Source of the DNA: a virus | DNA: 56,655 nt | Reading direction: 5' to 3' (one strand) | IMG/VR virus record: IMGVR_UViG_3300048033_000146 | Span: 1 to 56,655 of that record | Shown: positions 181-56,206 of the stretch, piece by piece | Position numbering within the stretch: position 1 is the stretch's first letter | Layout: every line of letters starts with the position of its first letter | The notes under the pieces: generated by a model | The model's database searches: none | Seen by the model: only the letters and a program-made list of their open reading frames with translations | What the model was told of the DNA's origin: nothing | Program-made: the position numbers and the translations under genes

Positions 181-399
181 TCACGCATCTGCTTGCTCAC
201 TCAAAAGGTGATAGCGTACATAACGCTGACCTGTTACAGGGTGTTGTTTGCGGATACGAGTAAACTTAACGCCAACCTCTTCTAGGTCTAGGATGCGACG
301 TGGCAACGACATAATATTGTATTCCACAATTGCTTCACGGTTGGTGATGCTACCCACAGTTTGAAGGTGCTTCATGATGGTGTCGATTTGTTTTTGCAT
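181..399 (-). CDS. Small winged helix-turn-helix protein (HTH_39-like)
   Basis: This 72-residue protein begins MQKQIDTIMK. I chose this start because AGGAG lies 9 bases upstream; a longer frame opens at 423 without such a site. The pattern 'gsITnrEAi..y.I..L..RI.dLe..Gv', followed by a basic turn and a Tyr-rich strand (RYVRYHLL), matches the small phage helix-turn-helix family PF14090. Such proteins are presumed DNA binders. It is the only obvious HTH protein encoded in the leftward arm and could act on the control region at 3293-4308, but that link is inference. Confidence 0.75.
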   Translation of the reverse strand: MQKQIDTIMKHLQTVGSITNREAIVEYNIMSLPRRILDLEEVGVKFTRIRKQHPVTGQRYVRYHLLSEQADA

Positions 400-416
400 G
401 GTATATACTCCTGTTT

Positions 417-629
417 TTACCATTTATGATTTCGTATTAGCCAGTAGGCATAACACTCTGTACAATGATCCTCGCCACAGATCAAGTCTATTAACCAGAC
501 TAGGTTTGGCTTGTTGTTTTTCTGCCACATCTTGTTACGTGCAGAGAAAGTCTGGTTTGATGATCCACCCAGTATGACGTTGACCAATACTGATGCGGCA
601 ATCGCTACACGTTTAAGATAAGATTTCAT
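417..629 (-). CDS. Conserved phage membrane-associated protein, unknown function
   Basis: This 70-residue protein starts at MKSYLKRVAI, downstream of a weak AGGT site; the frame also opens upstream at 662. Residues 5-20 form one hydrophobic helix (VAIAASVLVNVILGG). A conserved-looking segment follows with NQTFSARN, NLVWLID, and a Cys/His patch (CGEDHCTEC). Small proteins with the 'LNvllGG..nqTFSaRN...LvWliD' pattern occur in many tailed phages without a proven role. Its start overlaps the 48-residue gene upstream by 17 bases. Confidence 0.75.
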   Translation of the reverse strand: MKSYLKRVAIAASVLVNVILGGSSNQTFSARNKMWQKNNKPNLVWLIDLICGEDHCTECYAYWLIRNHKW

Positions 630-2632: not shown

Positions 2633-3292
2633 TTAAACTTTTACCGCGTCAACGCATTCAACGTGATAGCGTGAAACAATATCGCCATTGTCTAGTGATT
2701 TGTTAGCACGATTACCCGCCACATAATCGCACCATGAATTCCACCAAAATGCAGATCCTTGAATTTGTGTCATCTTTACATAGTCGGCAATTTTAGCGCG
2801 ACGTGTTGCCGGTTTTACTTTGCCAAGCTTGACAGCGTTAGCAGATAGGCCAAGGCGTTTTAAATTATGACTATCGATACAAGCGACATTAAAGCCAAAC
2901 ATTTGCGCCACGAATGCAGCTTTAACCATACCAAGGTTTGGAACGTTCAAGAATAGTTCAATCGCTTCAACGCAGCCTTCAACGCTATCAAGGCCATAGG
3001 TCTGTTCAATATGTTTGATCTTGCCATATAGGAAACCGTCATGTGCCTTGGCATATTCAAGGCCATCACCTTTAAGACCCCACATAAAACGAGAGCTTGC
3101 GCCCAATTCGTTTACGTCATCAATCTGGCCTTTACATGTGGATAGACCCGCTTGAATTGTTGTCAGAACAAATAGCACGACTGGCACAACACTCTTTTTG
3201 TTGTCAGATATTGCGCGGATTGCATCAACGTCACGCTCATAAGAATTCAATGTGATCGCGTCATTGGTGATTGCGAATTTGGTGTTAGTCAT
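2633..3292 (-). CDS. HhH-GPD-like protein, candidate DNA glycosylase
   Basis: This 219-residue product starts at MTNTKFAITND, selected over a longer frame opening at 3313 because AAGGA precedes it. The segment VPNLGMVKAAFVAQMFGFNV followed by ACIDSHNLKRLGL closely follows the helix-hairpin-helix and catalytic-Asp pattern of base-excision glycosylases (LPGVGxKTA...aVDTH). The Asp is present. The catalytic Lys position of the Nth/Ogg1 type is shifted by one residue (VK instead of KT), so it may be monofunctional or only bind DNA. It is the first gene of the leftward operon. Confidence 0.65.
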   Translation of the reverse strand: MTNTKFAITNDAITLNSYERDVDAIRAISDNKKSVVPVVLFVLTTIQAGLSTCKGQIDDVNELGASSRFMWGLKGDGLEYAKAHDGFLYGKIKHIEQTYGLDSVEGCVEAIELFLNVPNLGMVKAAFVAQMFGFNVACIDSHNLKRLGLSANAVKLGKVKPATRRAKIADYVKMTQIQGSAFWWNSWCDYVAGNRANKSLDNGDIVSRYHVECVDAVKV

Positions 3293-3341: not shown

Positions 3342-3538
3342 TCATCCCGATTAAGATATTATGTAGACGTATAAGTCATCAAAAAATTTGGTTTTGTAAC
3401 AATTCGTGATCGACATTCAAATAGTTGAATATGTTATTTATATTTATAATGTATATACACAGTTATGTTTCAGTAACGAAATGTTACAATGTGAAACAAA
3501 GCGTGAGCAAGGTGAATGCATTGGAACGATTGCATGAA

Positions 3539-3621
3539 TGTGATCACATAATGAGGGGTGGCATATATTTGTGATCACAATAGGGGGTGTATCGTACACG
3601 TTTCTTTATTTTGTGATCACA
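3539..3621. promoter_or_regulatory. Three phased TGTGATCACA palindromic operators
   Basis: Perfect 10-bp palindromes lie at 3539-3548, 3570-3579 (12 bp if TTGTGATCACAA is counted) and 3612-3621. Their centres are 31 and 42 bp apart, close to 3 and 4 turns of B-DNA, so bound dimers would face the same side. A related half site (TGACCACA) follows at 3642 and a TGATCA at 3664. The binder is unknown. Confidence 0.7.
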
Positions 3622-3944
3622 GTCTGAATTGGTAAGCTTTTCTGACCACAATACGGCCTTAATTGATCAGATAACACTTATAAAAGCTATATATTTCAAT
3701 GAATTAGCTTGGTTTAGCCTTATTATTTCTGCATTTTGGTACGATTGACCCTAGAAAGGCACCGTGCGAGGGCCACCCGGGGGTATGTGGTATTACGTAT
3801 ATGTACAAATACACAGAAGGGGCTTTTTGAGGATGCAACTAAAACGTGTATACAGGGGGTATATGGACCAATAGTAGTAACTTTATGTTACAGTATGCTA
3901 CAATATGTGAAGATTTAGCATTTTATGGATTGACAGGGGGGTGT
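3583..3944 (+). repeat. Four GGGGGTRT boxes
   Basis: Copies lie at 3583-3590, 3779-3786, 3855-3862 and 3937-3944, all on the plus strand and each followed by an AT-rich stretch. The last three are 76 and 82 bp apart. In an AT-rich spacer these G runs stand out. They could be binding sites, origin iterons or promoter parts. Confidence 0.55.
3587..3599. promoter_or_regulatory. Second inverted repeat GTGTA-TCG-TACAC
   Basis: This perfect inverted repeat shares the core GTATCGTAC with the site at 3327-3341. It lies between the second and third TGTGATCACA palindromes, so two different operator types interleave here. Confidence 0.45.
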
Positions 3945-4308: not shown

Positions 4309-4578
4309 GTGTTGACAATGAATAATAATCGAATACAACTATACGCATCAGATGACGTAATTGAAGAGTTTTACAAAGCTCTAGCTTCTGGTGACCCTAA
4401 CAGATTACACCGTGTACATATCCCTAAAAGTGATGTCTTTTATGTGAGATCAGCTATAGAAGCTGACACAGGAAAGCGATACACATTGGATCATGTAGAA
4501 CGTGCTATGTACCTTGAAGGTATGCTTGATAGAAAAGACGTGTTTGAACCTGACAGAGAACGTGATGGCGTAGGATGA
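4309..4578 (+). CDS. Hypothetical protein, first rightward gene
   Basis: The frame encodes up to 89 residues; a second ATG at 4318 (MNNNRIQLY) is equally possible. Neither has a clear ribosome binding site, which is unusual for this genome. The product has KALASGDPNRLHRVHIPKSD and an acidic C-terminus. Its 3' end overlaps the next start as ATGA. A TTGACA followed at +23 by ACAACTATA lies within its first codons and resembles the motif upstream of the terminase and capsid genes. I recognise no family. Confidence 0.65.
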   Translation: MLTMNNNRIQLYASDDVIEEFYKALASGDPNRLHRVHIPKSDVFYVRSAIEADTGKRYTLDHVERAMYLEGMLDRKDVFEPDRERDGVG

Positions 4579-8876: not shown

Positions 8877-9035
8877 ATGAAAAGCTTTTTTCGTAAACTT
8901 TGGAAAGCAATCGAAGAGTCTCAGCAACGCCGCGCAGACTATTACTTACTACAGCAACTTACTGATCGTGAACTACGTGATCTGGGTATCGGGCGTTCAG
9001 AAATACGTTCAGCCATTTATAACCGTAACGATTAA
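8877..9035 (+). CDS. DUF1127 (YjiS-like) small protein
   Basis: The 52-residue product reads LWKAIEESQQRRADYYLLQQ then LTDRELRDLGIGRSEIRSAI, the full DUF1127 signature (L.D.eL.DlGi.RseI). These small basic proteins are abundant in Alphaproteobacteria, where members have been linked to RNA metabolism and regulation of phosphate or carbon pathways. In a phage it is likely a borrowed host regulator. Its ribosome binding site is strong but held in a hairpin, and it stands alone just before the packaging genes. Confidence 0.85.
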   Translation: MKSFFRKLWKAIEESQQRRADYYLLQQLTDRELRDLGIGRSEIRSAIYNRND

Positions 9036-42424: not shown

Positions 42425-43135
42425 TCAAAGTCCTTCTGCCATAAATACTTTTACCCACTCAGCACAGATGTCACTACGTACAATGTCATCTACACCAAAC
42501 TCTACAACAGGGACAGGCAGCATGTGTTTCTTTGCTAGGTGTATGGCTTTAGATAAACCGTCACCTTCTTTTAGATCAGACTGCTGCGCGTCACCGTTAA
42601 GTACAATTTTACTTCCTTCACCAACGCGAGTCAACAACATCTTTAACTCATGAATAGTTATGTTCTGGGTCTCGTCTACGATGATGAAAGCATTGTCAAA
42701 GCTACGCCCACGCATAAGCGCAAGCGGAGCCATTTCTATGTTGCCATTCTTGATAGCGGTATCAACTGTACCTTTACCAAGATGCTTCTGTAGTACGTCA
42801 AGTACAGGTAACGCCCAAGGGTATGTCTTTTCCTCAAGCGATCCAGGTAAGAAACCAATGTCTTTACCAACAGCCACGTGTGGACGTGTGATAACAATAC
42901 GATCAACTTCTTTGAGTGTGTACAAGTCAGCCGCATAGGTAGCTGTGACATAAGTTTTACCTGTACCTGCTGGACCTAGAATGAATACCTGATTGCTAGA
43001 CTTTAAGCTATCAAGCAACTCTTTCTGTTTGTTATTTACAGGTACAAGACCAGAAACCTCTTTGGCTGCTGCGTTCTTGTAGTTAGTCTTCCGTCTAGTT
43101 CTAGTTTGTTTCTTTGGGAAGTCTGTTACACTCAT
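42425..43135 (-). CDS. phoH: PhoH-like ATPase
   Basis: The 236-residue product has Walker A GPAGTGKT at residues 54-61, an IVITRPHVAVGKDIGFLPG motif and Walker B IIVDETQN at 151-158. A sensor-type KIVLNGDAQQSDL follows. This is a full PhoH ATPase domain. PhoH is very common in marine phages; in bacteria it is linked to phosphate stress and RNA metabolism, but its phage role is unsettled. AAAGGA precedes the start. The first 30 residues are a basic extension. Confidence 0.93.
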   Translation of the reverse strand: MSVTDFPKKQTRTRRKTNYKNAAAKEVSGLVPVNNKQKELLDSLKSSNQVFILGPAGTGKTYVTATYAADLYTLKEVDRIVITRPHVAVGKDIGFLPGSLEEKTYPWALPVLDVLQKHLGKGTVDTAIKNGNIEMAPLALMRGRSFDNAFIIVDETQNITIHELKMLLTRVGEGSKIVLNGDAQQSDLKEGDGLSKAIHLAKKHMLPVPVVEFGVDDIVRSDICAEWVKVFMAEGL

Positions 43136-54532: not shown

Positions 54533-55320
54533 ACTAGCATGTCCTTTAGTTTTTCCATGTCTGTATCGACACGGTACTTGATGTCATCAAACAGAGACAG
54601 AGCTTTAGTTGGCACACCTGTCCACTGTTCGATCTCTCTCCGATACTGTATAGTCTTTTTAGCAGCATCAGGATCAAGAGCAATAATAACTTTATTATAC
54701 TCTCGAATTTTTTCAAGGTGGTTTGTTGTTAGCTGAGTGCCAAGAATAGCCATGCTAGTTATATCAGGAAACTCTTGCCATGCAACAATAGCTGACACAA
54801 CATCCTCAACAATTAGCAATTTACTACCTGAACCCATAGTGAAATAGTTAGCTTCACCACTATAGCGATACCACTTTGGAAATCTTTTCTTACCAACCGC
54901 ACGTCCGATTGCATCAATGATGCGGCCCTTGTGCTTTATAGGGAACACAACACGTTCATCTTTTACATCATACAGCAGACCGCCTACGGCTAGGCCATAG
55001 CGTTTGGTGAAGCGGTGAAACTTATCATGAAATCCTGTAGGCTTTACCACATATACAGGTATCTCCATAGTCTCAGCTTCCTGTTGTCTAGTTTGCTTTA
55101 CGGTTTTATTCATCAGGTTCATAATCTCTTCTGCGGTCATGTCTGTGTCATGAATGCCTGACACATGACAGTCCATCTTATAGCAATTCCATTTTAATGC
55201 CCCGCCACCTATCGTAGCTGTGTAAGTATTCTTGCCACCACAGAAGGGACAGTCGCCACGGTAATCACCATGTGTGGTTAGGTCAGAGGCAAACGCTCTT
55301 TGTTTCTGCCAACTAGTCAT
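54529..55320 (-). CDS. TOPRIM primase with zinc finger
   Basis: The 263-residue product has a zinc-finger C24-x2-C27 and C46-x4-C51 (CPFCGG...CYKMDC) and a TOPRIM domain with LLIVEDVVSA (Glu172) and IIALDPDA (Asp216, Asp218). This is the T7 gp4 primase-half arrangement without the helicase domain. It makes RNA primers for lagging-strand synthesis and likely works with the separate DnaB-like helicase at 51335. Confidence 0.92.
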   Translation of the reverse strand: MTSWQKQRAFASDLTTHGDYRGDCPFCGGKNTYTATIGGGALKWNCYKMDCHVSGIHDTDMTAEEIMNLMNKTVKQTRQQEAETMEIPVYVVKPTGFHDKFHRFTKRYGLAVGGLLYDVKDERVVFPIKHKGRIIDAIGRAVGKKRFPKWYRYSGEANYFTMGSGSKLLIVEDVVSAIVAWQEFPDITSMAILGTQLTTNHLEKIREYNKVIIALDPDAAKKTIQYRREIEQWTGVPTKALSLFDDIKYRVDTDMEKLKDMLV

Positions 55321-56206
55321 CGCTTTCTATTCCTCTTGCTGCTAGTGCGTTTGATGCACCAGTAAATGTATTCACTAGATAAGGCTTTACACTACTGGGG
55401 TTCTGGTGTCCAGAGAATTGCATAATGCCAACCAAATCCACCCCTGCTTCTACTGCTTCTGTGATAGCTGTGCGGCGTAAGTCCTGCGCATTTAGTTCAC
55501 GCGGTAGGTTAGCTTCGTCTAGTACTTCGTTGATTGCAGGGGCTATTTCCTGTTCTTGGTAAGCTCGGATGAGGCCACGTTTGATGTTGTACTTGGGTGC
55601 AACGACATCCTGAAAACCAAACATCTCTTTCTGTTGGCGTAGCATGTTGCACAAATTCTGACTGATAGGCAGATGCACCTCTGCGTTCCGCTTAGATTGC
55701 GTCAGGTCTGTGCGGCATTGATCTAGGTCTACATAGTCCCACGTTAGCTTACGCATATCACCAACACGCTGACCCCACTCATACGCCATATGTACTAGCA
55801 GCCCGATACCGTGCCAACGTTCTTGGCTGTAGGCTGTGGACAAGAATGATTTAACCTGATCACGTGTCCATAGTTGTCTGCGTGGCTTGGTTTGGATCGT
55901 TTTAATGACGCGCACAGGATCATGCATAACCATGTCATGACGCAGGGCGTGTTTCCAAGCGACAGACAGGGATTGTTTCATGTAGTTGGCTGATCGAATG
56001 CCATACTGATCTACCCACATCTCATAAGCTCTGTTGAGCATCCCTGCTTTGATGTCTTGTAGGTTTGTATTGCCTAGAAGCTTGTACCCTACCTTGGTTT
56101 CAGATACCCGCATCAGGTGACGCTCATATTGGCTCTGAGTGCTACCCTTCAGGCGTTTGAATGGGTGGCTGTTCAGGTACTCTTCTATCAGTTTCTTCAG
56201 TTTCAT
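55313..56206 (-). CDS. int: Tyrosine recombinase (integrase family)
   Basis: The 297-residue product has an N-terminal SAM-like core-binding region and a C-terminal catalytic domain with R147, K172, R244, H267 and nucleophile Y276. The expected His of the HxxR box is Gln241 (QDLRRT instead of HDLRRT). It would cut and rejoin DNA at a specific site, either to integrate or to resolve concatemers. The altered residue may change activity. No attachment site was identified. AGGGAC precedes the start. Confidence 0.9.
   Translation of the reverse strand: MKLKKLIEEYLNSHPFKRLKGSTQSQYERHLMRVSETKVGYKLLGNTNLQDIKAGMLNRAYEMWVDQYGIRSANYMKQSLSVAWKHALRHDMVMHDPVRVIKTIQTKPRRQLWTRDQVKSFLSTAYSQERWHGIGLLVHMAYEWGQRVGDMRKLTWDYVDLDQCRTDLTQSKRNAEVHLPISQNLCNMLRQQKEMFGFQDVVAPKYNIKRGLIRAYQEQEIAPAINEVLDEANLPRELNAQDLRRTAITEAVEAGVDLVGIMQFSGHQNPSSVKPYLVNTFTGASNALAARGIESDD

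Follow-up and report, generated by a model that had tools for sequence, protein, structure and literature searches.

The stretch of DNA analysed here (the window) is a viral record of 56,655 bp, the ends of which overlap by more than 100 bp, suggesting that the record is a complete genome. The window belongs to an HMO-2011-type roseophage, with CRP-603, CRP-2 and CRP-207 as its nearest named relatives; its own host was inferred from relatives. Its relevant features are listed below.

181–423, minus strand: HTH_39 protein (Pfam HTH_39), the candidate binder of the preliminary description; its distribution does not follow that of the boxes
2633–3292, minus strand: first gene of the leftward arm, encoding a 219-aa protein for which no family was found; has relatives
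3472–3507, minus strand: stretch separating the boxes from the leftward (early) arm, retained in the alignment with the near relatives L125 and L066
3539–3548, no strand: AkgR-type box 1, TGTGATCACA, exact match; retained in L125, L066 and L076
3570–3579, no strand: AkgR-type box 2, TGTGATCACA, exact match, 31 bp from box 1; retained in relatives
3612–3621, no strand: AkgR-type box 3, TGTGATCACA, exact match, 42 bp from box 2; present in L125 and L076, lost in L066
3641–3650, no strand: possible degenerate box 4, TCTGACCACA, two mismatches, 29 bp beyond box 3 and in helical register
4318–4578, plus strand: first gene of the rightward arm, encoding an 86-aa protein for which no family was found; similar proteins occur at many box-bearing loci
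55313–56206, minus strand: phage integrase by family assignment, in the leftward arm, across the record end

An exact-match search of the record found TGTGATCACA at these three positions and nowhere else. The cluster is intergenic, between the starts of the leftward gene at 3292 and the rightward gene at 4318, and the start-to-start distances of 31 and 42 bp correspond to three and four turns, placing the copies on one helical face. Three copies compare with 0.13 expected, and none of 100 shuffles reached three. Allowing one mismatch added a single place in the window, at 42887. Among the 39 ten-base palindromes of the window, only one word besides TGTGATCACA recurred, occurring twice. The preliminary description had reported three palindromes, phased at 31 and 42 bp, in a divergent control region; positions and intergenic location agree with it, and the word is not frequent elsewhere in the genome. 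The degenerate copy TCTGACCACA may be a fourth box, or may have arisen by chance.

No consensus sigma-70 promoter was found beside the boxes of the window, and none was found within 3472–3507, where the leftward promoter may nevertheless lie. The integrase makes a temperate cycle possible for this phage. A separate stretch at 3763–3816, with TACGTATATGTACAAATACACAGAAG at its end, has hardly changed across all four aligned relatives while the sequence around it has diverged, and a similar element occurs in CRP isolates; this stretch may act as a promoter or as a second control element of the phage. In the late arm, beside the terminase genes, positions 8877–9035 encode a 52-aa protein of the DUF1127 family (Pfam PF06568), which is common among bacteria; CRP-603 also has such a protein.

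Alignment of the nearest relatives showed that the boxes survive even where sequence has been inserted or the flanks have diverged. L125 contains a fourth box, L076 has spacings of 30 and 44, and L066, besides losing the third box, has another one upstream. Exact boxes were present in 5 of the 11 HMO-2011-type isolates from Rhodobacteraceae, always in the junction near the same record end; CRP-603, CRP-1, CRP-345 and CRP-13 share the genome type and junction of the window, with varying number and spacing of boxes. The other six isolates, including CRP-207 and CRP-3, contained no exact box. Thus the expectation that relatives would carry the cluster at the same junction held for L125, L066, L076 and the four box-bearing isolates named, and failed for some isolates of the same type, among them the close relative CRP-207. 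No box was found in HMO-2011-type phages of other hosts (the SAR116 phage HMO-2011, three SAR11 phages, two rhizobial phages and one of unknown host), and no exact box in seven other roseophages. The box-less isolates and roseophages indicate that the boxes are dispensable for some phages. In CRP-207 and CRP-9 (L349 and L353, at the record end) the junction consists of unrelated, box-less sequence, yet the structural genes are near those of the window, and the control module seems to be exchangeable.

Box-bearing phages fall into three groups separated by their shared genes, with some loci too short to be placed: the HMO-2011-type group, a cobavirus-like group resembling Lentibacter phage ICBM2 across the primase/helicase gene, and a group resembling CRP-6. 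The boxes of these phages are flanked by TT before and AA after TGTGATCACA, and word and flanks are identical to those of host boxes at sucC, sdhC and akgR.

Among the matches listed, paired TGTGATCACA in bacterial genomes occurred almost only in Rhodobacterales. There were at least 120 such pairs, and of the 120 examined 110 were exactly 21 bp apart; 89 lay upstream of sucC and 17 upstream of sdhC, both TCA-cycle genes. The 21-bp spacing is not matched in the window, where the boxes occupy the same face at another number of turns. For AkgR, an activator in Rhodobacter sphaeroides, the reported sites include GTGATCAC (Price and colleagues, PMC6365646), and sucCD, sdh and the 2-oxoglutarate dehydrogenase genes were predicted to be under the control of RSP_0981, a GntR-family regulator (Imam and colleagues, PMC4344238). 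Four of five host genomes have a box directly before one FCD-type GntR gene, which lies 9 kb from the sucC pair in Planktomarina and 12.5 kb from it in the fifth genome, a Rhodobacter. We take RSP_0981 to be AkgR, in keeping with the matching target genes. NrdR and CRP/FNR boxes were rejected as the identity of the word, since their half-sites or spacers differ.

AkgR orthologues with GntR and FCD domains were found in 28 of 29 further host (Rhodobacterales) genomes, at 61–76% identity and in one case split in two; akgR is also present in a Planktomarina genome. Upstream regions were scored for 21 of the 28 akgR loci and for a minority of the paralogue loci: an exact box preceded 16 of the 21 akgR copies, mostly 167–175 bases before the helix-turn-helix codons, and none of the 11 scored paralogues. 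No box occurred anywhere in about 3.3 kb around akgR paralogues (30 loci). The presence of a box before most scored copies of akgR, and of none before the paralogues scored, ties the word to AkgR, which is well supported by these sequence comparisons as the predicted binder of the phage boxes.

Two further observations concern the host sites. At the host loci L172, L238 and L244, which are not of the Rhodobacterales type, pairs 23–24 bp apart lie near citrate synthase-like (gltA) genes, hinting at a wider or shifted regulon. The Planktomarina genome G001 contains fifteen exact TGTGATCACA copies in about 2.5 Mb, compared with five to eight in four other Rhodobacterales genomes of about 4 Mb. 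This streamlined lineage may have a larger regulon, or lower G+C may explain part of the difference.

The binder could in principle be encoded by the phage. A repressor or replication initiator recognizing the same word would make the cluster an operator array or an iteron-type origin, which tandem phased palindromes resemble, and many window proteins are without a family. We consider this very unlikely, because the ten-base word and its flanks are common to host boxes and three unrelated phage lineages, and because related phages of other hosts lack the box. The sharing of the word with host promoters argues in particular against an iteron-type origin. The preliminary description had named the helix-turn-helix protein (at 181–399) or a host factor as candidates. 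The HTH_39 protein occurs in the box-less CRP-207 and is missing from the box-bearing CRP-1, CRP-345 and CRP-13, as well as from 11 of 12 box-bearing environmental records tested; it is an unlikely binder because its distribution does not follow the boxes. Thus a lambda-like array served by this protein, the sole candidate examined for that role, is not borne out by co-occurrence, and the identity of the word with host AkgR boxes favors the host factor. No GntR gene was detected in the window or in 19 box-bearing phage records, some of them fragments, so that host AkgR would serve. Boxes in the phage together with an undetected regulator gene are the pattern seen where phages use a metabolic regulator of the host.

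To describe the spacing of the boxes, viral contigs were scanned for two TGTGATCACA copies 15–45 bp apart, with longer spacings visible only through extra copies. At least 119 viral stretches contained paired TGTGATCACA. Among the matches listed, spacings peaked at 20–23, 30–34, 39–45 and 52–53 bp, with almost none between. The outer distances of three-box clusters were mostly 62–64, 72–77 and 82–86 bp, or approximately six, seven and eight turns. By the Rayleigh measure, periodicity at 10.5 bp was strong, and it remained strong in the HMO-2011-type, cobavirus-like and CRP-6-like groups each taken alone, with raw p-values that overstate the evidence for phasing owing to kinship within groups. 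Grouping by spacer family over all loci merges too many sequences for independent events to be counted. TGTCATGACA, a palindrome matched in base composition and used as a control, gave 58 viral stretches with spacings mostly of 24–27 bp, off the whole-turn register; as judged from this one control word, whole-turn phasing is no general trait of paired palindromes. The TGTCATGACA pairs, found in many viral contigs (L261–L318), may themselves be the operator of another regulator.

In phage clusters with a recognizable −35 element, the start of TTGAC tends to lie 11, 21, 30–32 or 41–42 bp outside the last box. The core promoter of the L008 type is also that of L081, but their box distances differ by 20 bp, or about two turns. 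Such phasing, with boxes upstream of the −35 element, fits the needs of an activator touching RNA polymerase from upstream. However, the independent cases of promoter phasing are few, the box-to-promoter distances of the phages are not common to host promoters, and the window has no consensus promoter, and we therefore grade activation of the phage promoter by AkgR as likely only.

Host AkgR might instead bind and repress the phage promoter, for example restraining lytic genes or a prophage while the TCA cycle is active, until a metabolic change releases them. The box of akgR itself lies close to the gene, like a repressor site, and restraint of this kind would suit the integrase of the window and the ability of CRP-3, a phage of the same type, to integrate (PMC6918029). 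Nevertheless, the published description of AkgR is that of an activator (PMC6365646), the boxes precede the −35 element and do not overlap it where such an element is recognizable, and CRP-3, the phage shown to integrate, has no exact box. We regard repression as unlikely, though the strongest of the alternatives.

A different role, which would require no phage promoter nearby, is titration: box copies on the phage genome, several of high quality and multiplied by replication, would draw AkgR off the TCA-cycle genes of the host and alter its metabolism. That no promoter was recognized in the window is consistent with such a role. Titration would, however, need neither helical phasing nor a constant place at the junction, nor the phasing with TTGAC seen in some lineages, and it appears highly improbable.

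The reading that we prefer, and consider reasonably probable from the sequence evidence, is that the palindromes are operator boxes of host AkgR, the GntR/FCD regulator of TCA-cycle genes (sucC, sdhC) and of akgR itself in Rhodobacterales, and that its binding to the phased boxes would most likely lead to activation of an early promoter nearby. A phage without a GntR regulator of its own would use the AkgR of its host, dimers of which would occupy three, perhaps four, boxes on one DNA face, three and four turns apart, at the divergent junction. Bound AkgR would most likely activate the nearby early promoter, and phage gene expression would then track the TCA-cycle or 2-oxoglutarate state of the host. 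2-Oxoglutarate is presumably the ligand of AkgR, judging by the name of the protein. Binding in vivo, its cooperativity, activation over repression, the ligand and the arm controlled are all points that we infer.

At least three unrelated virus groups carry helically spaced clusters of the box, which apparently allow the metabolic state of the host to influence their genes. More tentatively, at somewhat below an even chance, unrelated lineages of marine Roseobacter phages may each have taken up phased AkgR arrays, making early or lytic entry dependent on TCA-cycle and 2-oxoglutarate status. If AkgR acts in this way, a decision in phage gene expression would be tied to the central carbon state of the hosts, in phage groups reported to be dominant in the ocean. 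A further use of the box cluster might be as a marker by which uncultured viral contigs could be assigned to hosts among the Rhodobacterales. We found no prior mention of the boxes in the openly accessible literature: none of the terms palindrome, promoter and binding site occurs in the publications examined on HMO-2011-type roseophages, and searching for the sequence word itself gave nothing relevant.

Comparison with the AkgR (RSP_0981) regulon of Rhodobacterales shows the same box word, with host sites at sucC, sdhC and akgR, but a different arrangement: phage clusters consist of three or more boxes, mostly three and four turns apart, whereas the boxes of host pairs are two turns apart. Sites of host regulators in phages are already known from cyanophages. 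T4-like cyanophages contain sites for NtcA, the binding of which depends on 2-oxoglutarate (PMC3037559), and are likewise marine phages with the sites of a metabolic regulator of the host. The NtcA sites are spread over the genome, whereas the present case involves AkgR, a GntR/FCD regulator, heterotrophic alphaproteobacterial hosts and one phased cluster at the junction; if the proposed control is true, it would parallel that of NtcA and cyanophages, but in heterotrophic bacteria. The host regulator PhoB was shown to bind cyanophage promoters at the Pho box (PMC10976474). That case concerns a two-component phosphate response with sites at individual genes, and was tested by experiment, while the AkgR case is predicted from sequence. 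Compared with NtcA and PhoB, the regulator, the host group and the architecture of the sites are different here.
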